NCBI RefSeq assembly: GCF_013041615.1
Contig: NZ_JABEPQ010000001.1
Location: forward strand, 798,976 to 862,975
Length of the DNA: 64,000 nt
Direction: 5' to 3'
Source: Knoellia koreensis
GTDB taxonomy: Bacteria; Actinomycetota; Actinomycetes; Actinomycetales; Dermatophilaceae
A model generated the notes under the pieces. It had not been told where the DNA came from. It was given only the letters and a program-made list of their open reading frames with translations, and did no database searches. Position numbers and translations under genes: made by a program. Each line of letters opens with the position of its first letter. Positions within the stretch are counted from its first letter, which is position 1. Of the stretch, positions 8,176 through 63,173 are shown piece by piece.

Positions 8176-8226
8176 CGGTTCGAGGTAATAGCGCCCCCGA
8201 TTCCGGCGCACTATTACCTCGAACCG
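8176..8226. repeat. 51-bp palindromic element, copy 1 (terminator-like)
   Basis: The outer arms CGGTTCGAGGTAATAG (8176-8191) and CTATTACCTCGAACCG (8211-8226) are perfect inverted repeats of 16 bp. The inner part GCGCC...GGCGC pairs further with one bulged base, leaving a CCCGATTCC loop. It starts 10 bp after the SGNH hydrolase stop, where it could act as a terminator. It aligns without gaps to copies at 48692-48742 (reverse orientation, 46/51 identical) and 63123-63173 (39/51). Confidence 0.9.
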
Positions 8227-8304
8227 ACTGCCGTCGACGCCCAGCAGCCCCACCCGTCACAGCCGCCGAAGCGAGCCTTCTGCGCTGGTCATAGGGTGTC
8301 CGAC

Positions 8305-8676
8305 ATGTCCGTTGTCGAACACCACAAGCTCGTCCGCGACCGGGTGCCGCAGCTCATCCGGTCCCGCGGCAGCGAGCCGATCACCCGCAGCCTCTCCCCC
8401 GACGAGTACCGCACCGCGCTGCTCGCCAAGCTCGTCGAGGAGGCCCAGGAGCTGCGTGATGCCACCGAAGCCGAGCGGCTGCCCGAGCTGGCCGACGTGT
8501 GGGAGGTCCTCACCAGCCTCCTCACCGAGCTCGACTTCTCCCTCGACGACGTGTCGCTGGCCGCGCAGTTCAAGCGCACCGTTCGTGGCGGTTTCGACGA
8601 GCGGGTCTTCCTCGTGACCACCTCCGACGACTCGGACCTCCGCGAGACCGACGAGCAGGAGCCCGTCCCCGCCTGA
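8305..8676 (+). CDS. MazG-like all-alpha NTP pyrophosphatase (COG4997 type)
   Basis: A 123-residue protein of the all-alpha NTP pyrophosphohydrolase fold, thought to hydrolyse non-canonical nucleotides. The N-terminus KLVRDRVPQLIRSRG is typical of the COG4997 group. The metal-binding acidic residues are in KLVEEAQELRDA (EExxEL, about residues 44-54) and ELADVWEVL (ExxD, about 60-68). ATG 8305 is preferred to GTG 8296 because AGGG at 8293-8296 gives an 8-nt gap. The gene is convergent with aconitase, and a 35-bp palindrome lies between them. Confidence 0.85.
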   Translation: MSVVEHHKLVRDRVPQLIRSRGSEPITRSLSPDEYRTALLAKLVEEAQELRDATEAERLPELADVWEVLTSLLTELDFSLDDVSLAAQFKRTVRGGFDERVFLVTTSDDSDLRETDEQEPVPA

Positions 8677-8707
8677 GCCGGCCGATCCGGCCCCGATCGC
8701 GACGAAA

Positions 8708-8742
8708 GGGGTATGCCGCGTGGTGACCACGCGGCATACCCC
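8708..8742. terminator. 35-bp palindrome between convergent genes, probable bidirectional terminator
   Basis: Arms of 17 bp (GGGGTATGCCGCGTGGT at 8708-8724, ACCACGCGGCATACCCC at 8726-8742) are perfectly complementary around one central G. The stop codons of the convergent flanking genes are at 8676 and 8787, so it can form a hairpin for either transcript. There is no U-tract, as is usual in high-GC actinobacteria. Each arm is a copy of the abundant GTATGCCG octamer. Confidence 0.8.
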
Positions 8743-8786
8743 TCAGTTGTCGTGTGGGGACGAAACCCCATGCAGCAGAAGCGGAC

Positions 8787-11570
<2,784 letters not shown>

Positions 11571-11619
11571 TTGCGGGCTCCTTCGATGCTCGGGTCCGAC
11601 GTCTTCGTCCGTCACGATT

Positions 11620-11637
11620 TATCTTGACGTCAAGATA
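11620..11637. promoter_or_regulatory. 18-bp perfect palindrome upstream of aconitase
   Basis: TATCTTGACGTCAAGATA equals its own reverse complement and lies 50-67 bp before the acnA start codon. A perfect 18-mer in a 71% GC genome with ten A/T positions is unlikely by chance. It looks like the site of a dimeric regulator; I cannot name it. On the acnA strand the palindrome contains a TTGACG that could double as a -35 element. Confidence 0.65.
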
Positions 11638-11699
11638 TCACGTCGCGAGGACCGCCGCTGCCTTCGATCCTGCTCCACCCCACGCCCGAGCGAAACCCG

Positions 11700-13034
11700 T
11701 CAGGCCCCGTCTTCCGGGGGGTCGCCCGGCGCGAAGAGCGCGATGCACTCGACGTGGTGGGTCATGGGGAACGCGTCGAACGCGCGCAGGGCGCGCAGCG
11801 CATAACCGCGTTCGCGCAGGTATGCCGTGTCGCGGGCCAGCGCTGCCGGGTCGCAGGCGACGTAGGCGATGGCCCGGGCCCCCAGCCCCGCCACCTGGCC
11901 GCACACGCCCCGACCGGCACCGGTGCGCGGCGGGTCGAGGACGACGACGTCGGCAGTGGGCGGCAGGAGCGGGTTACGACGCAGCTTGCGCTGCCTGGTG
12001 GCACGCTGGCGTGCGGCCCCCTTGCGCGCGGGCCGGGCGACGCCGAAGGCGTCATCGACGCGTGCCCCCACGACAAGCGTCGACGGGTATGCCGCGAGGT
12101 TGCCCTCCGCGGCTCGCGTCGCCGACGCGTCGGACTCCACCGCGACGACGCGACCGGTCTCACCAACGCGGGAGGCGAGGGCGGCCGCGAAGAGGCCCAC
12201 GCCGGCATACAGGTCGAGGGCCGTCTCGCCCGGTTGTGGGTCCAGCAGCTCGAGGACGACGTCGACGAAGGTCGCTGCGGCGCCCGGGTGCACCTGCCAG
12301 AAACCGCGCGCCGACACCTCGAAGTTTCCCGAGAAGCCTTGCGCAGCAACGGCTTCCGTCACCGTCGGCGATGCAACGGGTGCGCCGGGGTCGGACGGCA
12401 CCGGCACCTCCACGACCTCGCCGACGGAGGGCGCCACCACGTCGACGGCCCGCTCCCCCGGCCACGTGCGCCCGAGGACGCCGGTCGCCAGCACCCGCGG
12501 GTCGGCGATCAGACAGGTGTCGACGGGGACCACCTCGTGCGAGCGGTACCGGTGCAGACCGGGCACTCCGGCCTCGTCGACCGCGAACTCGACGCGCGTA
12601 CGCCACCCCAGGCCTGACGGCATCTCACCTTGCGCCTCGGCCGGCACCGGCAGCGGCTCGACGACCAGTCCGTGCACCAGGTCGCGGTGCAGCCCGGCCA
12701 AGCGCTCCAGCTGCTCGCGCACCACCGCCGCCTTCAGGTCCCGTTGGTACGCAACGTCGGCCTGCTGGAAGTCGCACCCACCGCACTGCCCCGGGACGGC
12801 ATACCGACACGGGGGCGGCACCCGGTGCGGACTCGGCGTCAGCACCTCGACCGCCTCGGCGCGCACGAACCGCTGCCCCTCGCGCGCCTCGGTCACCCGG
12901 GCGAGTACCCGCTCCCCCGGCAGAGCCAGCCGGACGAAGACGACCCGGCCCTCGTGCCGCGCGACGCAGAAGCCGCCGTGGGCGACCGGTCCGACGTCGA
13001 GCTCGACCTCGTCGCCGACCCGCAGCTCGCTCAC
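11700..13034 (-). CDS. TrmA/RlmD-family RNA (uracil-5-)methyltransferase
   Basis: A 444-residue SAM-dependent RNA methyltransferase. The N-terminal TRAM domain is at about residues 1-60 (VGDEVELDVGPVAHGG). An iron-sulfur-type cysteine group follows (CRYAVPGQCGGCDF, about 76-89). The SAM-binding motif LDLYAGVGLFAAAL is at about 272-285, LDPPRTGAG at about 362-370, and the catalytic cysteine in YVACDPAALARD at about 392. These are the hallmarks of m5U methyltransferases acting on rRNA or tRNA; which nucleotide cannot be told. GTG 13034 overlaps the end of the upstream transporter frame (GTGA). M. tuberculosis has the same pair (Rv2689c-Rv2690c) as I recall. Confidence 0.9.
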   Translation of the reverse strand: MSELRVGDEVELDVGPVAHGGFCVARHEGRVVFVRLALPGERVLARVTEAREGQRFVRAEAVEVLTPSPHRVPPPCRYAVPGQCGGCDFQQADVAYQRDLKAAVVREQLERLAGLHRDLVHGLVVEPLPVPAEAQGEMPSGLGWRTRVEFAVDEAGVPGLHRYRSHEVVPVDTCLIADPRVLATGVLGRTWPGERAVDVVAPSVGEVVEVPVPSDPGAPVASPTVTEAVAAQGFSGNFEVSARGFWQVHPGAAATFVDVVLELLDPQPGETALDLYAGVGLFAAALASRVGETGRVVAVESDASATRAAEGNLAAYPSTLVVGARVDDAFGVARPARKGAARQRATRQRKLRRNPLLPPTADVVVLDPPRTGAGRGVCGQVAGLGARAIAYVACDPAALARDTAYLRERGYALRALRAFDAFPMTHHVECIALFAPGDPPEDGA

Positions 13035-13381
13035 TGACCCAGGCGGACCGAGCCGGCCGTGGGGCCGTCGAACCGCTCCTCCTGGCCCTCCGAGGACTCG
13101 AGCTGCCACGGCACGCTTGCCACCATCACGCCCGGCGTGAAGAGCAGACGACCCTTGAGCCGCAACGCACTCTGGTTGTGCAGCACCTGCTCGTACCACT
13201 TCCCGAGGACGTACTCGGGGATGTAGACGATGACGACGTCACGCGGGTGGCCAGAGCGGATCGACTTCACGTAGTCGACGATCGGACGCGTGATCTCGCG
13301 GTACGGCGAGTCGAGCACCTTGAGCGGCACCGGGATCTCACGCCGGTCCCACTCCTCCTGCAGGGCCTTGGTCTCGTCGGG
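13031..13381 (-). pseudogene. Detached C-terminal part of the APC-family transporter
   Basis: After the TAG at 13384-13382 the same frame stays open for 116 codons to TGA at 13031. It encodes a soluble tail (PDETKALQEEWDRREIPVPL, then KVLDSPYREITRPIVDYV and LLFTPGVMVASVPWQLE). I recognise this tail as the usual continuation of full-length actinobacterial homologues. No start codon with a ribosome site is evident; GTG 13330 is an internal Val codon. It is either a nonsense-separated remnant, translated by readthrough, or an effect of a sequence error. The stop overlaps the methyltransferase start by 4 bp. Confidence 0.75.
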
Positions 13382-15040: not shown

Positions 15041-15131
15041 GGCGAACACTCTAGGGCGCGCCGATGGGTGTTGCGCGCCACCCCGGAGACCAGCACCACC
15101 GGGTGGACGGTGCCGGTGTAGCGTCGGCGTC

Positions 15132-15800: not shown

Positions 15801-15815
15801 CCAGGAGGACCCTCA

Positions 15816-17524: not shown

Positions 17525-17531
17525 GTCGTGC

Positions 17532-35903: not shown

Positions 35904-35947
35904 GGTCCGGTGCGGACGACGTGGAGCCACGTCGTCCGCACCGGACC
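35904..35947 (+). terminator. Long intercistronic hairpin after the binding-protein gene
   Basis: Arms of 21 bp (35904-35924, beginning GGTCCGGTGCGG, and 35927-35947, ending CCGCACCGGACC) are perfectly complementary and separated only by AG. The hairpin lies 30 bp after the binding-protein stop. Such structures between binding-protein and permease genes partly terminate transcription or protect the upstream mRNA from 3' exonucleases, giving excess binding protein. Confidence 0.8.
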
Positions 35948-47320: not shown

Positions 47321-50300
47321 TCAGTGTCCGGAGCTGCCGGGGCTGGAGTGCCACAGCTTGCGGGGCGGGTCGAGCCGGTCAGCGCCGGACCCGCCGGCAC
47401 CACCCAGGCCACCAGAACCGCCCAGGCCACCAGGACCGCCGGGGACGGCCGCACCCTGGCCGAGGCGGTGCGAGCCGCGGACGTCCTCGCCAGGTGGTCG
47501 GGTGTCGGCGTACGGCGACTGCTTGAACCCCGAGGCGTGCACCAGCACCCGTCGCCCCGATCGGACCTCGGCCCGGTGTGCCTCCTCCAACGCCTCCGCC
47601 TGCTCGGTGGCGGCGCGCTCGGACTCGTCCATCGCGGCATACACGGCCTCAACTCCCCCGGCCTGCCACGCCTCCCACAGCGGCGTGAGCTCCCAGGCGC
47701 CGGTGGCGCGCAGCGAGATGCCGCGCTGGCCGGTGCGGCGCACGACGCCGCGCACGAGCAGCATCCAGGAGTGGAAAACCGTTGCGGCGTAAGGGCCTTG
47801 GACGTCCTCGAAGAAGGTGGCGTCGACCGGTCCGGTGGAGTCGTCGAGGGTGAGGAACACGACCCGGCGGCCGGTGCGGATCGGTGGGGTCTGGGTGGCG
47901 ACCTTGACCCCGGCCGCCCAGACGGTGGAGCGGCTGCGCGCCTTCAACAGGTCGCGGCTGCGGGTGACGCCGAGGGCGTCGAGCATCGGCGCGTAGAACT
48001 CCACGACGTGGGCGCTGGCGTCGAGGCCGAGGATGTCGAGCTCGGCGCGGACGCGTTCGGGACCACTGAGCTCGGGCAACCCGGTGCCGGGGGTGAGCTC
48101 GGGCTGGTCGCCCAGGTCGAGCATGAGCTGGGTCGGCTGCTGGTCGGCGGGCAACGCAGGGGCGGCGGCCTGGGACTGCGCCGCGGTCCGTGCCCGCACC
48201 ATGGAGCCGGTCGTGATGCCGGCCTCCCCGGGCGGCACCTCGAGCGCGAGCTGGTCCTGCGCCCCGGGCACCTGCGCCCCAGGCACCTGCGCCGACCGGC
48301 CACGCCCGCGCCCACGCCCCGGCGCGACCCGCCGGCTCGAACGGGTCACCGCCCGGCTCCACCGGTCGAGCTCGGCGACGTGCAGCAGCAGGTCGCGCCG
48401 GGTGGTGCGGCCCCGCCGCCCCAGCGCTGCCGCCCCCGCACCCGACGCCAGCCCGGGCACTCCGCCGCCCACCGCCCCGATGCCGTAGAGCCGGTCGAAC
48501 GCGCCCGCCAGCACGAGTCGTTCGGCGACCGGCCGCGACACCCGCGCGCGGTGCCAGAAGTCGGGCAACCCGGCATACGGCTGCCCGGCGACGACGCGCG
48601 CGACCTCCGCCTCGCTGATCCCGCGGACGTCGGCGAGCGAGATGCGTATGCCGTAGTCGCTCGCGTCGGGCAGGTCGCCGCTGGTCGCGTCGGTTCGAGG
48701 TAATACCGCGCCGGATTCGGGGGCGGTATCACCTCGAACCGCTGTGGGGTCCGCCAAAAGCTCGACCCGGTAGGTGTCGCCGGAGGCGTTGACGTCGAGC
48801 CCGAGGACGGTGATGCCGAGCGAGCGGGCGTCGTCGAGGATGAGTCGCTTGGGGTACATGCCCGGGTCGTGCGTCAGCACCCCCGCGAGGAACGCCGCCG
48901 GGTGGTGGGTCTTGAGCCAGGCCGAGTGGTAGGTCGGCAGCGCGAACGCGGCAGCGTGGGCCTTGCAGAACCCGAACGAGGCGAACGCCTTGAGCACCTC
49001 CCAGATGCGGTCGCACTCCTCCCGGGAATAGCCCCGCGCCAGCGCCGCCGGCCGCCACCACGCCTCGATCTCCACCTGCCCCTTGGGAGTGCCGAGCGCG
49101 CGCCGCACCTCGTCGGCCTGGGCCAGCGACACCCCGGTCGTCTCGGCGACGATCATCAGCACCTGCTCGTGGAAGACGACGACACCCTCGGTCTCCTCCA
49201 GCGCCGCGACGAGCGTCGGGTGCAGGTAGGACACCTCGCGCCAGCCGTGCCGGGCCTCGAGGAACGGCGTGATCATGTCGGACTTCACCGGCCCGGGGCG
49301 GAACAGCGAGATGTCGATGACGAGGTCCTCGAACCGCTCCGGCCCGAACTTGCCGATCAGCTCGCGCTGCCCCGGGCTCTCGATCTGGAAGCACCCCAGC
49401 GTGTGGCTGGTGCGGATCAGCCGGAACGTCGCCTCGTCGTCGAGCGGCACCTGCGCCTGGTCGTCGAGGTCGACCTCGACCCCGTCGACCCGGGCCACCT
49501 CGGCCACGGCGTGCGCCATCGCCGACTGCATCCGGATGCCGAGGACGTCGAGCTTGAGCAGCCCGAGGTGCTCGACGTCGTCCTTGTCGAACTGGCTCAT
49601 CGGGAACCCCAGCCAGCTCGCCTCCACCGGCGTGCGGTCGAGCAGCGCCCCGTCGGACAGGATCACCCCGCACGGGTGCAGCGCGATGTGCCGCGGCAGC
49701 CCGTCGAGCCGCTCGACGAGGTCGAACAGGGTGCGCAGCCGCGGGCTGTCGAGCCCCCGCGCCCGCAGCTCGGGCAGCTCGTTGATGGCGTTGCGGACAT
49801 CGCGGGCGCGGATGTGCGGGAACGCCTTGGCGATCTCGTCGATCTCCACCGGCGACATGCCGAGCGCAGCCCCGACGTCACGGATCGCGTGCCGCACCTT
49901 GTAGGTGTCCATCATCGACACGCACGTCACCCGGTCGCCACCGAACCGCTCGAGAATGCGCTCGTAGACCTCGGTGCGCCGGGCCGACTCGACGTCGATG
50001 TCGATGTCCGGCAGCTCGGCCCGCAGCGGCGAGCAGAACCGCTCCATGATGAGGCCGTAGCGGATCGGGTCGACCCCGCTGATGCCCAGCAGGTAGTTGA
50101 CCAGCGACCCGGCACCCGACCCGCGCGCCGCCACCCGCACCCCCATCTCGCGGATGAGGTCGACGACGTCGCCGACGGTGAGGAAGTACGACGCGTACCC
50201 CAGCTCGGCGATCACCTTGAGCTCGTCGACGAGCCGACGCTCGATCGTGGCCAGCTCGCCCTCGCCCGCCCCGGGGTAGCGCCACGCCACCTTTTCCCGG

Positions 50301-51340
50301 CACCGGTGCTCGAGGCGCACCTGCGGGCTCTCCCCGGGCTCGAGCCCGAGCACCTCCGGCTCGGGCAGGTGGACCGACCCGATGCCCAGGTCGTGCCGCG
50401 CCGACTGCGCGCACTCGAGCCCGAGCGCGAGGGTGCGCGCGAGCAGCGCGTCGGCGCGCGACCGGTCACCCCCGGTCACCTCGAGCGCCACCGCCCGCAT
50501 CGTGTCGGTGGTGGCGAGGTGGGCGGCGTCGGTGACCCGGTCGAGGTGACGGGTGTCGAGCGCGACCAGCCGCCGGGCCGCGTCGAGGACGTCGACGAGC
50601 GCGGACTCCCCCGGGTCGACGTGGCGCACCGCGGCGGTGAGCACCGCGGGCAGCCCCTCGGCATCGGCCAGTCCCAGCATCCGGGCGGCGTGGCCGCGCG
50701 ACGCGGGGGTGCCGGCCGGCCCCCCGTGGCAGACCACCTCGATGACCAGCGCCCCCTCGGGCAGCTCGCGCCGCCACCGGGCCAGCCGTTCGCGCGCCAC
50801 GTCGGGGCGTCCCGCCAGCACCGCCCGCCCCACGTCGGAGTCGGGCCCGAGCAGCACCACGAGCGGACTCGGCTCCCCCGCCGGCACCGCGCACCGCCCC
50901 GCCACCACACCAAGCGAGCTCACCGGCTCACCCCGCTCACCCCGCAGGTGAGTGTCGGTCACCAAACGGCACAACGCGGCATACCCGGCCCCTGCGGGCA
51001 CGCCCACCGAGCGGCCGCGCGCAAGGACGGTGACGCGTGGGTGGCGGGGGTCGACGATCGCACCTCCGCGCACGGGAGTGCGTGGGTATGCCGCGGGGCT
51101 GGGTGCGGCGCCCGGCTCACCGTCGGGGCCGATGGCAAGGTCGACCCCGAGGACCGGCGAGATGCCCGCGGCGGTGGCGGCGCGGACGAACCGGACCGCG
51201 CCGTAGAGCCCGTCTCGGTCGGTGAGCGCGAGCACCGGCTGGCGCTGCTGGGCGGCGCGCTCGACGAGCGCCTCGGGGGTCGCGGTGCCGTAACGCATCG
51301 AGAACCCGGACGCGACGTGGAGGTGGACGAACTCGGTCAT
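47321..51340 (-). CDS. dnaE2: Error-prone DNA polymerase DnaE2
   Basis: SOS mutasome polymerase of the C family, 1339 residues. The N-terminal PHP domain starts EFVHLHVASGFSMRYG. The catalytic aspartates are in LPDIDIDVES (two) and LKLDVLGI (third), after GVRVAARGSGAGSLVNYLLG. The C-terminus RVLVHASGFKQSPYADTRPPG ... PRKLWHSSPG is the DnaE2 signature. A 51-bp palindromic element (48692-48742) adds 17 in-frame codons at about residues 867-883, between the DVNASGDTY strand and GIRISLADVRG. A Gly-rich stretch near the C-terminus is unusual. The ATG overlaps the HEPN gene stop (ATGA). The operon has a LexA box at 52393, but no imuA or imuB is present. Confidence 0.95.
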   Translation of the reverse strand: MTEFVHLHVASGFSMRYGTATPEALVERAAQQRQPVLALTDRDGLYGAVRFVRAATAAGISPVLGVDLAIGPDGEPGAAPSPAAYPRTPVRGGAIVDPRHPRVTVLARGRSVGVPAGAGYAALCRLVTDTHLRGERGEPVSSLGVVAGRCAVPAGEPSPLVVLLGPDSDVGRAVLAGRPDVARERLARWRRELPEGALVIEVVCHGGPAGTPASRGHAARMLGLADAEGLPAVLTAAVRHVDPGESALVDVLDAARRLVALDTRHLDRVTDAAHLATTDTMRAVALEVTGGDRSRADALLARTLALGLECAQSARHDLGIGSVHLPEPEVLGLEPGESPQVRLEHRCREKVAWRYPGAGEGELATIERRLVDELKVIAELGYASYFLTVGDVVDLIREMGVRVAARGSGAGSLVNYLLGISGVDPIRYGLIMERFCSPLRAELPDIDIDVESARRTEVYERILERFGGDRVTCVSMMDTYKVRHAIRDVGAALGMSPVEIDEIAKAFPHIRARDVRNAINELPELRARGLDSPRLRTLFDLVERLDGLPRHIALHPCGVILSDGALLDRTPVEASWLGFPMSQFDKDDVEHLGLLKLDVLGIRMQSAMAHAVAEVARVDGVEVDLDDQAQVPLDDEATFRLIRTSHTLGCFQIESPGQRELIGKFGPERFEDLVIDISLFRPGPVKSDMITPFLEARHGWREVSYLHPTLVAALEETEGVVVFHEQVLMIVAETTGVSLAQADEVRRALGTPKGQVEIEAWWRPAALARGYSREECDRIWEVLKAFASFGFCKAHAAAFALPTYHSAWLKTHHPAAFLAGVLTHDPGMYPKRLILDDARSLGITVLGLDVNASGDTYRVELLADPTAVRGDTAPESGAVLPRTDATSGDLPDASDYGIRISLADVRGISEAEVARVVAGQPYAGLPDFWHRARVSRPVAERLVLAGAFDRLYGIGAVGGGVPGLASGAGAAALGRRGRTTRRDLLLHVAELDRWSRAVTRSSRRVAPGRGRGRGRSAQVPGAQVPGAQDQLALEVPPGEAGITTGSMVRARTAAQSQAAAPALPADQQPTQLMLDLGDQPELTPGTGLPELSGPERVRAELDILGLDASAHVVEFYAPMLDALGVTRSRDLLKARSRSTVWAAGVKVATQTPPIRTGRRVVFLTLDDSTGPVDATFFEDVQGPYAATVFHSWMLLVRGVVRRTGQRGISLRATGAWELTPLWEAWQAGGVEAVYAAMDESERAATEQAEALEEAHRAEVRSGRRVLVHASGFKQSPYADTRPPGEDVRGSHRLGQGAAVPGGPGGLGGSGGLGGAGGSGADRLDPPRKLWHSSPGSSGH
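48692..48742 (-). repeat. 51-bp palindromic element, copy 2, in frame inside dnaE2
   Basis: The arms CGGTTCGAGGTAATACCGC (48692-48710) and GCGGTATCACCTCGAACCG (48724-48742) pair over 19 bp with one mismatch. In reverse orientation it aligns without gaps to copy 1 with five differences, including the shared central GCCCCCGAATCCGG. It encodes the 17 residues around AVRGDTAPESGAVLPRT in DnaE2. Confidence 0.92.
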
Positions 51341-51867
51341 GGCGAGCCAGAACCCTTGGGAGACAAGGCGGTTGGTGCGAGTGCAGTGGGCACCAGCTGG
51401 TCGTGCGGGATGCCGGCGACGGGCAACCCGAGGGTGCGACAGACCAGCTCGAGGAACGTCTCGGCCTGGCGCAGCAGGTCGTCGGCCGCGCGAGCAGTCG
51501 AGGGTGCGGGGTGAGACGCGACGAGCTCGAAGAAGCCGGCCCACTCGGCGAGCTCGGGCGCCACCGACGGCAGCAGCTCCCACAGGGAACGCGGCCCCTC
51601 GTGGCCCCGCGAGGTGGTGCGGGCGGCGACGACCGCGGCGGCGGCCCGCAGCGCGCCGAGCTGGGCGAGCCGGTGCCGGGCCGTGAGGTCGCGGCTGTGA
51701 CAGGCCTCGAGCAGCGAGTGCCGCGACCGGTCGAGCAGCTCGAGGGCGCTGGCCGCACTGGTGCCCGCGACCCGGGCGGGTGCAGTGGTCATCGTGGTGG
51801 CAGTCATCGTCGTGGCAGTCATCGTCGTGGCAGTCATCGTCGTGGCAGTCATCGTCGTGGCAGTCAT
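51337..51867 (-). CDS. SAV_6107-type HEPN-domain protein
   Basis: A 176-residue helical protein. The body (ALELLDRSRHSLLEACHSRD, ALRAAAAVVAART, LLPSVAPELAEWAGFFELV, TARAADDLLRQAETFLELV) fits the SAV_6107-like HEPN family found in actinobacterial dnaE2 operons. HEPN proteins are often RNases or partners of nucleotidyltransferases; a typical RxxxxH motif is not obvious. The N-terminus is a run of five MTATT pentapeptides from a 15-bp DNA repeat. I chose ATG 51867 because a GAGG ribosome site lies 6 nt before it; each repeat offers another start. It is 11 bp after the DUF6504 gene and overlaps dnaE2 by 4 bp. Confidence 0.82.
   Translation of the reverse strand: MTATTMTATTMTATTMTATTMTATTMTTAPARVAGTSAASALELLDRSRHSLLEACHSRDLTARHRLAQLGALRAAAAVVAARTTSRGHEGPRSLWELLPSVAPELAEWAGFFELVASHPAPSTARAADDLLRQAETFLELVCRTLGLPVAGIPHDQLVPTALAPTALSPKGSGSP
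51793..51867 (-). repeat. 15-bp tandem repeat encoding (MTATT)5 at a gene start
   Basis: Five tandem 15-bp units (ATGACTGCCACGACG on the minus strand), four identical and the last with one synonymous change, form the first 25 codons of the HEPN gene. Each unit starts with ATG, so unit loss or gain would shift the number of possible starts but never the frame. Confidence 0.92.
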
Positions 51868-51878
51868 CGTCGTCTCCC

Positions 51879-52226
51879 TCAGTCCGCGACCCGCAGCAGC
51901 TGCCAGCCCGGGGCGTCCCCGCGGTCGAAGCCGAGGTCGAAGACCCCGACCCGGCCGAGGCGTCCGGCGCTGGCCTCGACGCGCCACACCTGGCGTTCGC
52001 GGGCGTCGGTGAGGACGTCGCCACCCTCGCGGGCGTCCCGCCACCAGGCCCGGCGCTCCTGCCAGTGGTCGAGGACGGTGCGCACGACGTAGAGCCGGCC
52101 CTGCCAGAGGAAGGACTCCGGCGCGGTGGCCGTCGTCGTGGACGCGCCCCCTCTGCCCCCGTCACCGGTCTCGCCGGCACCGCCGGTCTGCTTGACGTCG
52201 ATGGTCTCGTCGTACCGGCGCACCAC
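51879..52226 (-). CDS. DUF6504 protein, first gene of the SOS dnaE2 operon
   Basis: A 115-residue protein starting MVRRYDETIDVKQ and containing FLWQGRLYVVRTVLDHWQERRAWW, then ERQVWRVEASAGRLGRVGVFDLGFD; this is the DUF6504 pattern seen beside translesion polymerases in actinobacteria. It may bind the mutasome, but no function is known. A central Gly/Thr-rich stretch (GGAGETGDGGRGGASTTTATA) is probably a flexible insert. GTG 52226 follows GGAG by 6 nt. The frame is open to GTG 52424, but that would place the LexA box inside the coding region. It heads the operon with the HEPN gene and dnaE2. Confidence 0.82.
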   Translation of the reverse strand: MVRRYDETIDVKQTGGAGETGDGGRGGASTTTATAPESFLWQGRLYVVRTVLDHWQERRAWWRDAREGGDVLTDARERQVWRVEASAGRLGRVGVFDLGFDRGDAPGWQLLRVAD

Positions 52227-55337: not shown

Positions 55338-55449
55338 GCGTCAGATCATTCACGCACACCCGCATCGTTGGATGGTGTAACCCGGCGGCGACCGCAAGAC
55401 CATGGCCAGAAGGGGGTATTCGCTTCTCTAGTTGCGACCGCCGCGTGGC

Positions 55450-55842: not shown

Positions 55843-55898
55843 GCCCGCCACCCTGCCACGGGCAGGTGACACCCGAGGGTTACGGAAAGGCGAAACCT

Positions 55899-56810
55899 CT
55901 ACAGCGAAAGGTTGCGGTGCACCTCGAGCGTCGCCGTGGACCGGTTCATGGTGATGAAGTGCAGCCCAGGCGCACCCTCGGACAGCATCCGCTCGGCGAG
56001 CTCGGTCGCGATCTGTACGCCGACCTCGCGCGTCGCCGCCGGGTCGCCGGCCACCCGCTCGAGCCGCTCCACCACCGCCCGTGGCAACGGCGTGCCCATG
56101 AGCTGCGACATCCGCGCCACCTGCTTGAAGTTCGTCACCGGCATGAGCCCGGGCGTGATCGGCAGCGGCCGCCGCTCGGCCACCCGGTCGCGCAGCCGCA
56201 GGTAGGTGTCGGCGTCGAACACCATCTGCGTGATCGCGAAGGTTGCCCCCGCGTCGGCCTTCTTCACGAGGATCTCGACGTCGTGGTCGAGGTCGGGCGA
56301 AGCCGGGTGCACGTCCGGGAACGCCGCCACCCCGATCGTGAAGTCACCGAGCGAGCGCACGAGCGAGACGAGGTCGGTCGCGTGGTTGAGCCCCTCTGGG
56401 TGCGGCGTCCACTCCCCGCCGGGGTCACCCGGCGGGTCACCGCGCAGGGCGAGGACGTTGCGGACTCCGCTCGCGGCATACATGCCGATCACCTGGCGCA
56501 GCGCGGCGACGGAGGCGCCGACGGCGGTGAGGTGAGCCAACGGGGTGAGCGTCGTCTCGCGGGCGATGCGCTCGGTGACGCGAACGGTGCGGTCCTGGCT
56601 GGTGCCGCCCGCGCCGTAGGTGACGGACACGAAGTCGGGGCGCACCGACTCGAGCCGCCGGATGGCGTCCCAGAGCACCTGCTCGCCCGCGTCGTCCTTG
56701 GGTGGGAAGAACTCGAAGCTGATCGACGGCTGGGGTCGCGAGAGCATGCCGGGGATCGACCGGGTCAGCGACTCCGGCCGGGCAAGACGTGACGATTGCC
56801 CCAGCGCCAT
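55899..56810 (-). CDS. metF: Methylenetetrahydrofolate reductase
   Basis: Reduces 5,10-methylene-THF to 5-methyl-THF for methionine synthesis, using FAD. A 303-residue TIM barrel with the typical start SFEFFPPKDD (about 31-40; catalytic Glu at the strand end), SVTYGAGGTSQDRT (about 62-75), NVLALRGDPPGD (about 119-130) and ITQMVFDADTYLRL. The initial 28 residues (MALGQSSRLARPESLTR...) may be a start-site over-extension. TAGTCT ends 7 nt before ATG 56810, a leaderless promoter pattern. It is divergent from the polyprenyl synthase, as metF-like Rv2172c is from idsA2. Confidence 0.92.
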   Translation of the reverse strand: MALGQSSRLARPESLTRSIPGMLSRPQPSISFEFFPPKDDAGEQVLWDAIRRLESVRPDFVSVTYGAGGTSQDRTVRVTERIARETTLTPLAHLTAVGASVAALRQVIGMYAASGVRNVLALRGDPPGDPGGEWTPHPEGLNHATDLVSLVRSLGDFTIGVAAFPDVHPASPDLDHDVEILVKKADAGATFAITQMVFDADTYLRLRDRVAERRPLPITPGLMPVTNFKQVARMSQLMGTPLPRAVVERLERVAGDPAATREVGVQIATELAERMLSEGAPGLHFITMNRSTATLEVHRNLSL

Positions 56811-56908
56811 GGCGGTGAGACTAGTCGAGCGCCCACACCGTAGGCTCGAGGCCTGCGCAGTCCGAGACGGGCCGCGCCCGCACCACCGCCCCCGTCCTGG
56901 AGGAAACC

Positions 56909-57997
56909 GTGTCCGCCAACCCGCTCGACGCCGCCTCGCTGCGCGCCCGGGTGCAGGCGTGCGTCGACACGACGATCGCCCGCGAGCGCGAGGTGCTCGC
57001 CGAGGTCGGCCCCGACACCATCGAGCTGGTCGACGCCGTGGCCCGCCTCCTCCAGGGCGGAAAGCGGTTGCGCGCCGCCTTCCTCTACTGGGGCTACCGG
57101 GCGGCCGGCGGCCCCGACTCCGACTCCCTCGTCCAGGTGGCGACCGCGATGGAGTTCTTCCAGGCGGCCGCGTTGATCCACGACGATGTCATGGACGACA
57201 GCGACACCCGCAGGGGTATGCCGGCTGCTCACCGCTCGCTTGCGGCGCACCACGAGCGTGAGGCCTGGGCCGGTGACGCGGGACGGTTCGGCGTGGCCGG
57301 GGCGATCCTCGCGGGGAACCTGTGCCTGGGCTGGACCGAGGAGCTCTACGCCACCTCCGGGCTGCCGGCGGCGGACCTGGAGCGCGGGCGGCCGGTGTTC
57401 GACCGGATGCGCACCCAGCTCATGGGCGGGCAGTTCCTCGACGTCGTGGAGTCGGCGCGCTCCTGGGACGGCATGGAGACCGACGAGCGCATCGCCCGGG
57501 CGGAGCGGGTGATCCGCTACAAGTCGGCCAAGTACACCGTCGAGCACCCCGTGCTCATCGGGGCGTCCGCGGGCGGAGCCGGCTCCGACGACCTGACCGC
57601 CCTGTCGGCGTATGGCCTCGACCTGGGGCAGGCGTTCCAGCTGCGCGACGACCTGCTCGGTGTCTTCGGTGACCCTGCGACCACGGGCAAGCCGGCCGGC
57701 GACGACCTGCGCGAGGGCAAGCGGACCGTGCTCGTCGCGCACACCCTGGCCGGCACCGACGGTGCGGGTCGCTCGGCCCTGTCCAAGGGTCTGGGCGACC
57801 CGGACCTCGACGCCGACACGGTCGAGGCGCTGCGGACCGTCATCACCGACAGCGGCGCGGTGGCCGCGGTCGAGGCCGACATCACGCGGCTCGCCGGATC
57901 GGCGCGCGCGTCCCTGAAGTCCGCGACCGGCCTGACCGCCGAGGGCGTCGAGGTGCTCGACGCCCTCATCGACAGCGCCACCAGCCGCACCTACTGA
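56909..57997 (+). CDS. Polyprenyl (geranylgeranyl-type) diphosphate synthase
   Basis: Trans-prenyltransferase of 362 residues, elongating isoprenoid diphosphates for carotenoids, menaquinone or lipid carriers. The IPP-binding GGKRLRA is at about 51-57. The first Asp-rich motif LIHDDVMDDSDTRR is at about 91-104 and the second QLRDDLLGVFGD at about 247-258. Residues before the first DDxxD (AMEFFQAAAL) suggest a medium-chain product such as GGPP, but chain length cannot be fixed. GGAGG precedes GTG 56909. The position corresponds to idsA2 (Rv2173) in mycobacteria. Confidence 0.92.
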   Translation: MSANPLDAASLRARVQACVDTTIAREREVLAEVGPDTIELVDAVARLLQGGKRLRAAFLYWGYRAAGGPDSDSLVQVATAMEFFQAAALIHDDVMDDSDTRRGMPAAHRSLAAHHEREAWAGDAGRFGVAGAILAGNLCLGWTEELYATSGLPAADLERGRPVFDRMRTQLMGGQFLDVVESARSWDGMETDERIARAERVIRYKSAKYTVEHPVLIGASAGGAGSDDLTALSAYGLDLGQAFQLRDDLLGVFGDPATTGKPAGDDLREGKRTVLVAHTLAGTDGAGRSALSKGLGDPDLDADTVEALRTVITDSGAVAAVEADITRLAGSARASLKSATGLTAEGVEVLDALIDSATSRTY

Positions 57998-58032
57998 CCC
58001 AGCGGCGCTCCCCAAGATGGGGGCGGGCTGCC

Positions 58033-58446
58033 TCAGAAGGCGAGCTCCATGGCGCGGCGACGCACCTCGGTCTTGAAGCCGGCCTCGAGCGCGTCGACCG
58101 GGGTGCCACCACCGGGCAGGGTCTCGTCGCGGGTGAACAGCCACCGCAACGTCTCCTCGTCGGTCATGCCGCCGTCGGAGAGCACCGTGAACGTGCCGCG
58201 CAGGTGGGGCAGCACCCGTTCGCCGAGGAACTGCTCGGGCACGCCGATGATGCGTCGCTCCCCGACCCGGTGACCGAGCAGCTCGCGCTCGTCGAGCATG
58301 CGACGCACCTGCGACAGCGGCACACCCAGCCGTTCCGCCACGTCGGGCACCGGCAGCCAGGACCCGACGAGGCTCTCAAGGTCGACCTGGGCGCCACCTG
58401 CCAGTGCGGCGTCGTCCGTGCGGGGCATGGTCGGTTCGTCACTCAC
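58033..58446 (-). CDS. Rv2175c-like DNA-binding protein
   Basis: A 137-residue protein with a winged or MerR/excisionase-like helix-turn-helix (WLPVPDVAERLGVPLSQVRRMLDERELLGHRVGERR, about 31-65) and a C-terminal helical domain (LRWLFTRDETLPGGGTPVDAL). Rv2175c of M. tuberculosis binds DNA and is phosphorylated by PknL; here too a PASTA kinase gene lies nearby (60184). The Thr-rich N-terminus (SDEPTMPRTDDAALAG) holds possible phosphosites. GTG 58446 is the likely start; no ribosome site is visible. It is convergent with the polyprenyl synthase. Confidence 0.85.
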   Translation of the reverse strand: MSDEPTMPRTDDAALAGGAQVDLESLVGSWLPVPDVAERLGVPLSQVRRMLDERELLGHRVGERRIIGVPEQFLGERVLPHLRGTFTVLSDGGMTDEETLRWLFTRDETLPGGGTPVDALEAGFKTEVRRRAMELAF

Positions 58447-58765
58447 GAGACCAAGCGTGCCAGTCGCCGTCCGCGCGCACCCACCGGGGCGTATGCCGCG
58501 GGCGCACCGGCCGAACGCGGTGGACCCACACCGGTCGCGGACACCGGCCACCACGACCGCCGCGGCGAACTGACCGGCGGTAGCCGAACCCCGCGGACCC
58601 GGCGGACCGGTCTACGCAGTTGGGGTGAATTACATCGATGTAAGTCGAGATACATCGCGTTTCATGGTGTAACTTTCACATGCGTCACACTCGCCCCACT
58701 CACCACATCTGACCCGACTGTCCCGCACGACGGTCGGGCGGACCGCCCGAAAGGCAGCTCCCTCC
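58447..58765. other. Intergenic region upstream of the LysM/transglycosylase gene
   Basis: A 319-bp divergent gap. Its centre (58625-58690) is AT-rich and holds the 14-bp perfect palindrome TTACATCGATGTAA, a second TACATCG nearby, and GTGTAACTTTCACATGCGTCAC, which has the GTAAC/GTCAC look of MtrA-type sites but not at the usual spacing. I searched for a c-di-AMP (ydaO) riboswitch, common before such genes, and could not support one. Confidence 0.45.
58630..58643. promoter_or_regulatory. 14-bp palindrome upstream of a cell-wall hydrolase gene
   Basis: TTACATCGATGTAA is a perfect palindrome about 125 bp before the LysM gene start, in the only AT-rich part of the gap. It is a good candidate operator; the regulator is not identifiable. 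Confidence 0.5.
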
Positions 58766-60088
58766 ATGGCCCCCGTTGCCGCCGCGCCCGCTCTCCCCCC
58801 GGCAGTTGCGCTGACACGTCCCGCGGTCGTCCAGAAGGCCAAGCCGGCTCCGTACGGCTGGACCACCTACACCGTGCGGGGCGGTGACACCCTGGCCGGC
58901 ATCGCCGTGCGTACCGGCACCACGCCGGGCGCCCTCGCGGCCCGCAACAAGCTCAAGGCCGGGGGCAACCACCTGTCGATCGGGCAGAAGCTGTCCGTCC
59001 CCAAGACCGCCGGTCAGGCACGCGCCGAGGCCGCCAGGGCCAAGGCGGCCGCCGCGGCCCGCGCCGCAGCCATCCGCCGCGCCACGTACGTCGTGCGCTC
59101 CGGCGACACCCTGTCGGCCATCGCCTCGCGCAAGGGTGTCTCCCTGGCCTCGCTGCTCAAGACCAACAAGCTGTCGAGCCGCTCGATGATCCACCCCGGT
59201 CAGAAGCTGCGGATCCCCGGCGCCGGCGGCGCCGCCCGCGTCGGCGGCGGCAGCGCCCCGGCCGTCTCCACCGCCACCTACAAGGTCCGCAGCGGTGACA
59301 CCCTGTCGGCGATCGCGGCCCGCACCAAGACCTCGCTCGCCACGATCTACCGGCTCAACCGGCTCAGCTCGCGCAGCGTCATCCACCCGGGCCAGTCGAT
59401 CAAGGTCAGGGGCACCACGAAGTCGAGCTCGGGCGCGAAGGCGGGCACCACGGCATACACGGTCCGCTCGGGTGACACCCTCTCGGGCATCGCCGCACGC
59501 AAGGGCGTCTCGCTCGCCGCGCTGCTCAAGGCCAACGGCCTCTCCAGCCGTTCGGTGATCTACCCGGGCAAGAAGCTGCGCGTCCCCGGCGGCGCCACCA
59601 AGACTTCGACCAACAACACGTTCGCGGGGCGCAGCTACCCGCAGGCCACGGTCAGCTCGGCCAACAGGAACCGCGCCGCCCTCGCCAGCGCGTCCGTGCC
59701 GAGCCGCAGCCAGACGCGGGCGATGATCGTCGCCACCGCGCGTCGGCACGGTGTCGACCCCAGGCTGGCGCTCGCCGTGGCGTGGCAGGAGTCCGGCTGG
59801 AACCAGCGTCAGGTGTCGGTCGCCAACGCGATCGGGGTCATGCAGGTCATCCCCAGCTCGGGCCAGTGGGCCTCCGACATGGTCGGCCGCCGCCTCAACC
59901 TGATGAACACCCAGGACAACATCACGGCCGGTGTCGCGATCCTGCGCTCGCTGCAGCGGTCGGCCAAGAACACCGACCAGGCCATCGCCGGCTACTACCA
60001 GGGCCTGTACTCGGTGCAGAAGAACGGCATGTACGCCGACACCAAGTCCTACGTCGCCGCCGTGAAGGCCCACCGCAGCCGGATGTGA
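58766..60088 (+). CDS. LysM-repeat lytic transglycosylase-like protein
   Basis: A 440-residue peptidoglycan-acting protein with four LysM modules (YTVRGGDTLAGIA near 34, YVVRSGDTLSAIA near 109, YKVRSGDTLSAIA near 170, YTVRSGDTLSGIA near 229) joined by Ala/Lys- or Gly/Ser-rich linkers. A C-terminal SLT domain carries the catalytic Glu in VAWQESGWNQRQV (about 336) and AIGVMQVIP. It should bind and cut glycan strands outside the cell. However, the N-terminus (MAPVAAAPALPPAVAL) lacks the basic residues and helix of a signal peptide, and the frame is closed upstream at 58670 with no other start. The export signal may be lost or atypical. Confidence 0.85.
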   Translation: MAPVAAAPALPPAVALTRPAVVQKAKPAPYGWTTYTVRGGDTLAGIAVRTGTTPGALAARNKLKAGGNHLSIGQKLSVPKTAGQARAEAARAKAAAAARAAAIRRATYVVRSGDTLSAIASRKGVSLASLLKTNKLSSRSMIHPGQKLRIPGAGGAARVGGGSAPAVSTATYKVRSGDTLSAIAARTKTSLATIYRLNRLSSRSVIHPGQSIKVRGTTKSSSGAKAGTTAYTVRSGDTLSGIAARKGVSLAALLKANGLSSRSVIYPGKKLRVPGGATKTSTNNTFAGRSYPQATVSSANRNRAALASASVPSRSQTRAMIVATARRHGVDPRLALAVAWQESGWNQRQVSVANAIGVMQVIPSSGQWASDMVGRRLNLMNTQDNITAGVAILRSLQRSAKNTDQAIAGYYQGLYSVQKNGMYADTKSYVAAVKAHRSRM

Positions 60089-60183
60089 CCGCCGGGCGGT
60101 GGGCCGCCCGACGAACGGTTCGGGATCGCGGCCCACCGCCCTGCCTGCACGGGTTGCCTGCGTTCAGCACCTACACTTTGCGG

Positions 60184-62169
60184 GTGTCTTCCGGTGTGAC
60201 CGAGTCGCTGCTCGGGCGTGTGTTCGACGGGCGCTACCGCGTCCAGTCGCACATCGCCGACGGCGGAATGGCCTCGGTCTACCTCGCCCTCGACACCCGT
60301 CTGGAGCGGGACGTCGCGCTCAAGGTGCTGCGCCGCGACCTCGCCCAGGACGACGCGTTCGTCAGCCGGTTCCGCCGTGAGGCGCGCTCCGCGGCCCGTC
60401 TCTCGCACCCCAACGTCGTCGCCGTCTTCGACCAGGGCGAGGACGACGGCAACATGTTCCTGGCCATGGAGTACGTCCCCGGCCAGACCCTGCGCGAGGT
60501 CATGAAGGCCGAGGGCCCCCTCACGCCGCGTGCGGCCCTCGACATCATCACGCCCGTGCTCCAGGCGCTCGGCGCTGCGCACCGCGCCGGCATCATCCAC
60601 CGTGACGTCAAGCCCGAGAACGTCATCCTGCGCGAGGACGACGGCACCGTGAAGGTCGCCGACTTCGGTCTCGCCCGCGCCGTGAGCGCGCAGACCGTCA
60701 CCTCCCAGACGGGCGTGCTCCTCGGCACGGTCGCCTACCTCTCCCCCGAGCAGGTCGAGCGCGGCATCGCCGACGCACGCAGTGACGTGTATGCCGCGGG
60801 CCTGATCCTGTTCGAGATGCTCACCGGGTCGAAGGCCTTCACCGGTGACACCCCGATCCACATCGCCTACCAGCACGTCCACGGCTCGGTGCCGGTGCCG
60901 TCGTCGCGTGTCGCGTCCGTGCCCACGGAGCTCGACGAACTGGTCGCGCTGGCCACTTCGCGCGACCCCGACGACCGGCCGGCCGACGCGCAGGAGCTGC
61001 TCGAGGCCGTGCGGGTGGCCCGGGCCGGCCTGTCCCCCGCAGAGCTCGACCGGCGTCCCGAGGGAGCGGCTGCCGTGGGCGGCGGTGCGAGCACGGTCGC
61101 CGTCGAGCGCACCAGCGCCCTGCCGAACGGCATACCTGCCGACGACGCGACTGCGGCCACCACGACGCCGGCCAGGCGTCCGCTGCCACCCGTCGCGCTC
61201 CCGATCGACCACACGCCGACGTCACCACCGATCCCCCCACCGGGGCGGGACGTCGTCGCCCGCACCGACGGTGGCGGGCGCGGCGGACGTCGGCGTATGC
61301 CGTGGGTCCTGGCTGCGCTGGCCGTCGCCCTCATCGCGGGGCTGACCGGGTGGTGGTTCCTCGCCGGGCCCGGCTCGCCGACGGTGGTGCCGAAGACGGT
61401 GGGCACGACGTTCGCGCAGGCCAAGGCCGCGCTCGCGACGGCGCACCTCGACGCCAAGGAGCAGCAGCAGTTCGACGAGACGGTGCCCAAGGGGCAGGTC
61501 ATGTCGACGAACCCCGGCGCGGGTGCTGAGGTGAAGCGCGGCACCGACGTCACCGTGACCGTGTCGAAGGGGCCGGAGCGGTATGCCGTGCCGAACGTCG
61601 TCAAGAAGTCCGAGGCCGAGGCGCGTGACCAGGTCACCGCGCAGAAGCTGACGGTCGGGTCGGTGAAGCAGGCGTTCAGCGAGACGGTGGACTCCGGGCT
61701 CGTCATCAGCAGCGACCCCAAGGCCGGCACGTCGCTCAAGCGCGGCGCCAAGGTCAACCTCGTCGTGAGCAAGGGCCGCCAGCCGATCGAGGTGACCGAC
61801 TGGACCGGCAAGCCCGCGGACCAGGCCATCAACGACCTCACCGGCAAGGGGCTGCAGGTCGACGCCACCGAGCAGCGCAACGACGACAAGGTGCCCAAGG
61901 GCAGTGTCATCAGCCAGAGCCCGGCCGGCACCACGGCATACAAGGGCGACAAGGTGAAGCTCGTCGTCTCCAAGGGTCCGGTGCTGGTCAAGGTGCCGGA
62001 CGTCCAGGGCAAGCAGGAGCCGGAGGCCATCAAGATCCTCAAGGACGCCGGGTTCGAGGTGAAGGTCGAGCGGTTCATGGGTGGCATCTTCGGCACTGTG
62101 CGCAGCCAGGACCCGGCCGCGAACTCCGAGCAGCCCAAGGGCACCACCATCACGCTCGTCGTCGTCTGA
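60184..62169 (+). CDS. Ser/Thr protein kinase with PASTA repeats (PknL/PknB type)
   Basis: A 661-residue membrane kinase. The kinase domain (about 13-275) has the Gly loop DGGMASVYLAL, Lys of VALKVL, catalytic HRDVKPENVIL, DFGLARAV with the activation loop SQTVTSQTGVLLGT, and APE-equivalent SPE. A Pro/Thr-rich juxtamembrane part leads to one helix (WVLAALAVALIAGLTGWWFL, about 376-395). Four extracellular PASTA repeats follow (each ending VTVSKG/LVVSKG-like), which bind peptidoglycan or muropeptides. GTG 60184 has TACACT 6 nt upstream (leaderless pattern). It is near the Rv2175c-like gene, a known PknL substrate type. Confidence 0.93.
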   Translation: MSSGVTESLLGRVFDGRYRVQSHIADGGMASVYLALDTRLERDVALKVLRRDLAQDDAFVSRFRREARSAARLSHPNVVAVFDQGEDDGNMFLAMEYVPGQTLREVMKAEGPLTPRAALDIITPVLQALGAAHRAGIIHRDVKPENVILREDDGTVKVADFGLARAVSAQTVTSQTGVLLGTVAYLSPEQVERGIADARSDVYAAGLILFEMLTGSKAFTGDTPIHIAYQHVHGSVPVPSSRVASVPTELDELVALATSRDPDDRPADAQELLEAVRVARAGLSPAELDRRPEGAAAVGGGASTVAVERTSALPNGIPADDATAATTTPARRPLPPVALPIDHTPTSPPIPPPGRDVVARTDGGGRGGRRRMPWVLAALAVALIAGLTGWWFLAGPGSPTVVPKTVGTTFAQAKAALATAHLDAKEQQQFDETVPKGQVMSTNPGAGAEVKRGTDVTVTVSKGPERYAVPNVVKKSEAEARDQVTAQKLTVGSVKQAFSETVDSGLVISSDPKAGTSLKRGAKVNLVVSKGRQPIEVTDWTGKPADQAINDLTGKGLQVDATEQRNDDKVPKGSVISQSPAGTTAYKGDKVKLVVSKGPVLVKVPDVQGKQEPEAIKILKDAGFEVKVERFMGGIFGTVRSQDPAANSEQPKGTTITLVVV

Positions 62170-62184
62170 TCGCCCGGTCCTTCG

Positions 62185-63102
62185 TTGTCCACGCGCTTTC
62201 CCGCGGGCCGGCTCGCCACCCTGCTGCTGGTCTCGGTCACGGCGGTCTGGGGTTCGACGTTCTTCCTCATCCGCGACCTCGTGGCAACCGTGCCGTCGGC
62301 GGACTTCCTGGCGGTGCGGTTCGCGATCGCGGCCGTGGTCATGGCGGTGGTGTTCCGTCGTCAGCTGCTGGCGTTGACGCGGCGCGAGGTGATGATCGGG
62401 GTCGTGCTGGGGGTGCTCTACGGGCTAGCCCAACTGCTGCAGACGATCGGGCTCGAGCACACGGACGCGTCGGTGTCCGGGTTCGTGACGGGCACCTATG
62501 TCGTGCTGACGCCGATCTTTGCTGCGGTGCTGTTCCGCGACCGGCTGCCGTGGACGACGTGGGTGGCGGTGCTGCTGGCGACTGCGGGGTTGGCGGTGCT
62601 GTCGCTGCGGGGGCTGTCGGTGGGGTTCGGCGAGGCGCTGACGCTGGGGTCGGCGGCGCTCTATGCGCTGCACATCGTGGGGCTGGGGCGGTGGTCGACT
62701 GCGGGGTCTGCGACCGGGTTGGCGACGGTGCAGGCGTTCGTCATCGCGGTCGTGGCGGGGATCGCCGCGGTGCCCGGTGGGCTGACGCTGCCGGCTGATG
62801 GGGGGCAGTGGGCGTCGTTGCTCTACATGGCGATCGTGGCCGGCGCGGTGGCGCTGTGGGCGCAGACCTGGGCGCAGGCGCATCTGCCAGCGACGCGCGC
62901 GGCGATCGTGATGACGATGGAGCCGGTGTTCGCCGCGTTCTTCGCGGTGCTCTTCGGTGGTGAGTCCCTGACCGCGCGGATGCTCGTCGGTGGCGCGCTG
63001 GTGCTGACGGCGATGTACGTGGTCGAGCTGCTCGGCCGCCGCTCCCCCGAGGCGAGCGCCGAGGAGGACCCACCCGCGGAGCTGCTCCACCACGAGGTCT
63101 GA
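62185..63102 (+). CDS. EamA/DMT-family transporter
   Basis: A 305-residue membrane protein with ten helices in two EamA repeats. The first begins TLLLVSVTAVWGSTFFLIRDLV (typical AVWGSTF signature) and the second LGSAALYALHIVGLGRWS, ending in VIMTMEPVFAAFFAVLFGGESL (conserved MEPV..A motif). Members export metabolites or amino acids; the substrate is unknown. The start appears to be TTG 62185 with no ribosome site, 15 bp after the kinase gene, so it may be read through from that transcript. Upstream GTG or ATG starts are absent in this frame. Confidence 0.85.
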   Translation: MSTRFPAGRLATLLLVSVTAVWGSTFFLIRDLVATVPSADFLAVRFAIAAVVMAVVFRRQLLALTRREVMIGVVLGVLYGLAQLLQTIGLEHTDASVSGFVTGTYVVLTPIFAAVLFRDRLPWTTWVAVLLATAGLAVLSLRGLSVGFGEALTLGSAALYALHIVGLGRWSTAGSATGLATVQAFVIAVVAGIAAVPGGLTLPADGGQWASLLYMAIVAGAVALWAQTWAQAHLPATRAAIVMTMEPVFAAFFAVLFGGESLTARMLVGGALVLTAMYVVELLGRRSPEASAEEDPPAELLHHEV

Positions 63103-63122
63103 GTCGCCCCATGGATCCCCGG

Positions 63123-63173
63123 CGATTCGAGGTATTACTGCCCCCGATTCCCCGGCGTGTTTACCTCGAACCG
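63123..63173 (-). repeat. 51-bp palindromic element, copy 3, ending a threonine aldolase gene
   Basis: CGATTCGAGGTA (63123-63134) and TACCTCGAACCG (63162-63173) form a 12-bp stem with one G-T pair, around a middle with the shared GCCCCCGATTCC core. It aligns without gaps to copy 1 (39/51). The right arm read on the minus strand (GGT TCG AGG TAA) encodes the last residues and the stop of the threonine aldolase. Confidence 0.85.

Follow-up and report, generated by a model that had tools for sequence, protein, structure and literature searches.

The window analysed here, a stretch of 64,000 nucleotides from the genome of Knoellia koreensis, holds three similar 51-bp palindromes at dispersed positions. 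This raises the question of whether they are independent terminators or copies of one element and, if they are copies, what moves them. We followed the palindromes through the source genome (G000, 4.28 Mb) and a genus set of 11 genomes that includes it, and then through nuclease loci from public genome records. The labels DnaE2, EamA, PurF, PurM and thiolase are presumed from sequence resemblance rather than a family search.

Three related palindromes in the window

The initial annotation had described three 51-bp palindromes that can be aligned without a gap, and all three are real (Table 1). Copy 2 had been placed at 48692-48742, one base off; its identity to copy 1 at that position is 14/51. 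In the correct register copies 1 and 2 agree at 46/51 positions, the same value as before, and copies 1 and 3 at 40/51 instead of the earlier 39/51. Copies 2 and 3 also agree at 40/51. The arm type said to be common to all three is shared by copies 1 and 2, but the arms of copy 3 deviate (CGATTCGAGGTATTA). With up to three mismatches, the arm GGTTCGAGGTAATA occurs seven times in the window vs a shuffle mean of 0.78, and none of 100 window shuffles reached seven. TATGCCG-type words in the window were not markedly in excess (57 vs 44.6 expected). On each strand all three copies folded better than 200/200 shuffles, with z-scores of -4.0 to -9.1 over both strands (copy 2 folded as 48692-48742).

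Table 1. Palindromes and other inverted repeats of the window and of the source genome
Feature	Position	Strand	Description
Copy 1	8176..8226	+	solo palindrome, 51 bp, CGGTTCGAGGTA...TACCTCGAACCG, 10 bp beyond the end of ORF 7188-8165
Copy 2	48691..48741	-	solo palindrome, in frame within the long minus-strand ORF 47321-52180
Copy 3	63123..63173	+	solo palindrome, between convergent ORFs
Inverted repeat	8707-8743		perfect, 18 bp, AGGGGTATGCCGCGTGGT / ACCACGCGGCATACCCCT, 1-nt loop
Inverted repeat	35904-35947		perfect, 21 bp, 2-nt loop, unlike the TTCGAGGT family
Tandem copies	L069 927-977 and 1002-1052 (G000:C8:557926 and 558001)		two TTCGAGGT-family copies, 24 bp apart
Long model match	G000:C8:459194-459286		93 bp long, not 51

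The three settings are as first described: copy 1 is intergenic, copy 2 lies in frame within a gene and copy 3 at a gene end. Copy 1 has plus-strand ORFs on either side. The ORF around copy 2 is presumably a DNA polymerase III alpha gene of the DnaE2 type, and the minus-strand ORF 63161-63952 ends on a TAA that lies in copy 3. The arms of copy 1 contain GGTTCGA, which matches the T-loop consensus of tRNAs. The match is probably coincidental; several other arm families lack GGTTCGA. In Rfam, one copy matched mir-4436 twice below threshold, which we judged to be chance, and there was a tRNA match of 29.1 bits (cut-off 29) that is cut by the end of L005 and lies away from the palindrome.

Hairpins like the inverted repeat at 8707-8743 occur in stretches of G001, G004, G005, G007 and G010 (counted irrespective of position) and beside the nuclease loci L089 and L092. 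This repeat is possibly a conserved terminator or a further dispersed palindrome family.

A palindrome family with a maintained stem

We built a covariance model from 15 copies, which match it by construction. The proposal of a copied element with many genome copies was borne out by this search: at E <= 1e-4 we found at least 26 sites in G000, not just the three of the window (scoring covered 150 of the 3848 first-look candidates). An exact search of the 4.28 Mb gave 24 occurrences of the half-arm GGTTCGAGGTA, with an arm pair counted twice, and none of the reversed control pattern. At E <= 0.001 the model matched in 10/11 genus genomes, G000 included, with 27-76 matches on both strands in each of G000, G001, G002, G004, G005 and G007.

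The stem is maintained through compensatory change. The covariation score was 0.223 vs 0.120 for shuffled alignments, and 0/500 shuffles reached it. Both-side changes were seen at 7/19 stem pairs, a number that 25/500 shuffles reached as well. The two tandem copies in L069 recall the composite (BIME) arrays of REPs. The 93-bp model match may be a palindrome interrupted in the middle by an insertion.

Paired copies bracket a probable nuclease gene

Six pairs of copies about 1.0-1.1 kb apart were opened, one each in G000, G002, G003, G004, G005 and G007. Every pair encloses a single gene, whose product has 310-327 aa, and the five other proteins are 57-68% identical to the first. No such gene was found between copies at other spacings, which were 75 bp and 2.1 kb for pairs in G000 and 558 bp and about 5 kb for pairs in G007.

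A look for a TnpA-REP (Y1) or other transposase had been suggested; between the paired copies we found an AbiEi/DUF559-type gene instead. The protein has an AbiEi-like N-terminus, which we assume to be of the winged-helix type, and a DUF559/PD-(D/E)xK-like nuclease C-terminus. Among 29 nucleases, Pfam AbiEi_4 was matched in seven and DUF559 in eight at E <= 0.01; the DUF559 matches are weak, and the five inspected scores were under the curated cut-off. E211, D242, E253, H259 and D268 are invariant across the 29 aligned sequences, and from the motif we take them to form a PD-(D/E)xK-type site. The PADLOC models AbiEi and mREase_II matched weakly (3.7e-5 to 1.4e-4).

The Pfam scan of the bracketed proteins returned only DUF559, AbiEi_4, AbiEi_1 and SAM_SMF, with sub-threshold MTES_1575 and DUF2686, and no Y1 HUH domain (Pfam01797 Transposase_17). 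NCBIfam gave no match to the nuclease. A PDB sequence search gave two weak hits to an ankyrin protein (E 0.06), which were judged to be chance. No nuclease homologue was confirmed in viral contigs, and none was found on plasmids at 1e-8.

From nuclease homologues back to palindromes

For the reverse test we combined 24 genus hits with 35 loci from public genome records, which include MAGs. Removal of fragment hits (L086, L091, L096 and L099) and genus-duplicate loci (L101, L104, L107 and L110) left 51 loci. The best palindrome on each flank was sought independently of its sequence. A locus was counted when both flanks had a palindrome with at least 14/18 pairs and the arms matched at 10/12 positions or more. 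This was the case at 34/51 actinobacterial nuclease loci. Under the same rule 1/156 window tiles and 0/150 tiles beside nuclease loci were counted (1/306; the tiles overlap and are non-independent). The 14/18 threshold was set after data inspection; with a stricter 15/18 pairs the result was 29/51 loci vs 0/306 tiles. A looser rule, applied without a control to the remaining 17 loci, adds L117, L125, L127 and L130. At 13/51 loci neither rule recognised a matching pair, which counts against the explanation proposed below. In an unannotated 7.6-kb record we later found a further homologue, with 43.8% identity; its flank palindromes have 15/18 and 14/18 pairs, and their arms are alike, as judged by eye. 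The palindromes and the nuclease gene are associated.

The arm sequences are diverse among loci (TTCGAGGT, TTCGATGT, TTTGGG, TGGCCGACGA, TCTTTGAGGG, AGTTGAGTGCC and, in Kribbella, ACGTCCGAAGAAG), and they are coupled to the nuclease. Nuclease identity correlated with arm similarity (Mantel r 0.548, reached by 0/2000 permutations; 33/34 loci, L134 omitted), which means coupling and not recognition, because shared ancestry alone could yield such a correlation.

Further arm families in the genus

The palindromes with TCTTTGA arms were first met on the flanks of two nuclease loci, L094 and L098. Of the 11 genomes, seven have the pattern TCTTTGA...TCAAAGA and none has its reverse. The counts were 13 in G001 (one site double-counted), 11 in G003, 10 in G004, six each in G006 and G010, five in G007 and four in G008. 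Nearly all copies are 46 bp long, and the inner stems are genome-specific; among 30 distinct copies most inner pairs are kept via changes on both sides. One pair in G006, 1.1 kb apart, was opened for its spacing and encloses a gene with AbiEi_4 (E 1.7e-8) and a DUF559-like part. This gene was absent from the 24 genus protein hits, and hhalign aligned it to the first family with 95% probability. With this pair, 7/7 opened pairs of about 1 kb bracket an AbiEi-like/DUF559-like gene. Counting against the pattern, the TCTTTGA copies in G003, G004, G007 and G010 include no pair about 1 kb apart among the matches listed.

The distribution of other arms follows the resident nuclease in part. Copies with TTCGATGT arms number 13 in G007 (two of them unit flanks) and five in G001, and the nucleases there have a TTCGATGT flank. 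There are none in seven genomes, but G002 has two and G005 one, although the nucleases detected there have other flanks. The covariance model found 12 matches in G006, where the unit is broken, four in G009, which has no nuclease at 1e-10, two in G008 and none in G010, whose nuclease has TTTGGGGG flanks. G003 has a nuclease flanked by TTCGAGGTG, yet only five model matches, both strands counted. The TGGCCGAC family, which belongs to another nuclease of G000, is represented by the two copies on the flanks and a single solo copy that is clear and exact. These last two cases, like the TTCGATGT copies of G002 and G005, count against a strict correspondence. The other three TGGCCGAC matches in G000, like the four found elsewhere in the genus, appear to be coding sequence that fits the pattern by chance.

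Dispersal, placement and possible recurrent sites

We compared 103 copies in the fetched loci. In 34 copy pairs the two members differ at no more than two positions and have unrelated flanks, and no such pair has homologous flanks (the pairs share members and are non-independent). The flank identity of these 34 pairs is 0.21-0.62 at positions 5-12 and has a mean of 0.29 at positions 13-40. The near-identical copies extend over 44-46 bp, loop included, and their ends are sharp. Base pairing ends 3 bp beyond the core. Counting against movement, no target-site duplication was found around the copies. Outside the palindromes of two families we found no conserved tetranucleotide, only a bias of C on the left and G on the right: 44-64% at positions 4-10 in the TTCGAKGT family and 52-65% at positions 4-7 in the TCTTTGA family vs 35% at random centres.

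With a simple GC3 gene finder we classified 34 copies, namely 23/26 G000 sites, among them one unit flank, and 11 sites of G003. Sixteen lie between codirectional, 12 between convergent and two between divergent genes, and four are inside genes. Thus, as a raw count, 30/34 are outside genes or overlap a gene end only. This placement does not agree with the emphasis of the initial annotation on a length of exactly 17 codons. That length is no family rule either, because 5/15 aligned copies are 50 bp and the other ten 51 bp.

Ten relatives were searched in the stretches round the orthologous genes. The covariance model found no full-length copy there (best E 0.0042, 22 bases); in that search none of the window's own copies is worse than 1.6e-15. 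A simple palindrome finder missed copy 3 itself, so the absence rests on the covariance model and the site comparisons. The gene that holds copy 2 was found in 9/10 relatives, and the palindrome is absent in 9/9. The linker at this site is variable in length. In the nearest relative it has one residue more even though it has no palindrome, so the comparison does not establish a simple insertion. The neighbour of copy 3 was found in 10/10 relatives, with no palindrome in the 6/6 displayed, and the neighbour of copy 1 in only three. Empty sites were looked for in the relatives: no palindrome is present there, but divergence of the flanks (DNA identity of about 84% at best) is too great for base-exact empty alleles. 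The view that the palindromes are copied and probably mobile, and not independent terminators, is supported: there are at least 26 sites, near-identical copies in unrelated flanks, no full-length copy in the stretches of the relatives, and no T-run after the outer stem.

The whole unit differs in its presence among genomes. At the purF-purM junction it is found in 7/11 (frame broken in G006). The junction of G003 is empty, with 63 bases from the purF stop codon to a purM-like motif, and in G008, G009 and G010 other sequence is present. Within the seven purF-site units the agreement of the left with the right palindrome is 0.83, vs 0.66-0.67 between units, where it makes no difference whether like or opposite ends are compared. 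This suggests either joint change of both ends or replacement of one unit by another at this junction. In L072/L081 and L087, units with TTCGAGGTG (G003) and TGGCCGACGA (G000) adjoin the same thiolase-like gene. This gene and the purF-purM junction are possible recurrent target sites.

Discussion

We propose, with a probability of roughly 0.6, that the 51-bp palindromes are solo, non-autonomous ends of a palindrome-gene-palindrome unit and that the nuclease mobilises them in the fashion of REP/RAYT systems. The autonomous unit of about 1.0-1.1 kb would consist of a palindrome, one gene for a protein of 310-340 aa and a second palindrome. The AbiEi-like N-terminal part would read the outer arm sequence, and the nuclease would cut the hairpin, either extruded or single-stranded, at its base. 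Once freed or copied, the hairpin may then be joined elsewhere, usually near gene ends in C-rich/G-rich DNA, and no target-site duplication would arise. The autonomous unit would be delimited by two hairpins, and a single hairpin would move as a solo copy.

The palindromes could instead be operators at which the AbiEi-like domain represses the gene that encodes it, and the solo copies would mark the rest of its regulon. Autoregulation via inverted repeats is known for AbiEi antitoxins (excerpts of PMC7319586), the N-terminus is AbiEi-like and the arms track the protein. We nevertheless consider this unlikely, since the second copy sits downstream of the gene and only two of the 34 classified copies lie between divergent genes. 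Moreover, an operator does not need stem compensation, yet the inner pairs change on both sides, and the near-identity of copies extends through the loop. A role in defence or as a selfish cutter, with the palindromes as targets or self marks and not as cargo, is a still weaker candidate. It would suit the PADLOC matches and the units with unlike palindromes at the same chromosomal junction, but it leaves the sharp-ended solo copies at unrelated sites unexplained, and the neighbours read beside opened pairs look like housekeeping genes (presumably purF and a thiolase).

A role of the palindromes in intrinsic termination or mRNA stabilisation, with the hairpins shared through recombination and the nuclease gaining incidental insulation, seems to us improbable, slightly more so than the defence role, although the hairpins are strong and lie mainly at gene 3' ends. 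Within the element, TTTTT follows the inner G+C stem in 6/15 aligned copies, none of them in the window, so some copies could terminate transcription both ways. Past the outer stem, however, T makes up 3-14% of positions 4-8 in the TTCGAKGT family and 7-23% in the TCTTTGA family against a background of about 15%, and a terminator scan found none round copy 1 or round one AAAAACGCC-type copy. The outer arm sequence is conserved beyond the stem and follows the nuclease lineage, and 34/51 nuclease loci vs 1/306 tiles is not incidental. Ordinary terminators are unlikely to explain the pattern. Least probable of the four is that another, unseen transposase moves the palindromes, with the nuclease gene carried along as a passenger that benefits from having two ends. 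We infer movement by the nuclease and did not observe it, and there are genomes with TCTTTGA copies but, among the matches listed, no pair about 1 kb apart. Against this, the opened pairs of about 1 kb hold this one gene family and no other, and the bracketed family recurs in distant branches with unlike arms.

Mobilisation by the nuclease remains our preferred reading, and REP/RAYT systems are its closest parallel. REPs prefer gene 3' ends and have enzyme-specific repeat sequences, and both features fit here. In these systems (REPtrons) the enzyme gene lies between two REPs and more copies are dispersed in the genome (excerpts of PMC2817692 and PMC3733652), as with the palindromes here, which bracket an enzyme gene and are dispersed mainly outside genes. 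The resemblance to REPs noted in the initial annotation therefore holds for the architecture but not for the enzyme, which is AbiEi/DUF559-like and not a Y1 HUH transposase. The GTAG tag is absent as well at the palindrome ends of the two families compared. Since no HUH domain was found in the bracketed proteins and there is no such tag, we do not count the unit as a REP/RAYT member. According to published abstracts, REPs are 20-40 bp long with more than 100 copies, whereas the palindromes here are about 50 bp, number tens of copies or fewer and occur in Actinomycetota.

Rickettsia palindromic elements (RPE) insert in frame. Like these and other CGTC repeats, the present family consists of short palindromes, some within genes, but it has no CGTC tag in the alignment or the flank counts and has a consistent partner gene. 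CGTC repeats, RPE among them, are reported to lack a dedicated transposase (excerpts of PMC3733652). The AbiEi-like N-terminal part is shared with the type IV toxin-antitoxin system AbiE; however, here the C-terminus is nuclease-like and a single gene, not a bicistron with AbiEii, lies between the palindromes of the opened pairs. A Caulobacter DUF559 protein has been described as a Vsr-like PD-(D/E)XK protein (excerpts of PMC12907096). The DUF559-like C-terminus of our proteins resembles such Vsr/DUF559 endonucleases by weak profile match, and differs in being fused to an AbiEi-like part and in having cognate palindromes on both sides. Short palindromic repeats, as far as excerpts of PMC2817692 and PMC3733652 go, are tied to HUH enzymes or have no known enzyme. 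In the retrieved parts of the open-licence PMC literature (bioRxiv not included) there is no description of an AbiEi/DUF559 nuclease paired with palindromes.

The wider reading is that these units form a class of transposable elements whose sole enzyme, an AbiEi-DUF559 (winged-helix plus PD-(D/E)xK) nuclease, excises or copies hairpins of about 50 bp. Such a class would be an analogue of REP/RAYT made from restriction/antitoxin-type parts and present in many Actinomycetota lineages, each with its own hairpin; we give this an even chance. In distant Actinomycetota, a distinct type of enzyme is found again and again between palindromes of its own. If our explanation is true, part of an uncharacterised protein family would gain a function, and if the nuclease moves the palindromes, this would be a new chemistry for mobile DNA. 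The many lineages, each with its own hairpin, are a natural series for recognition tests.
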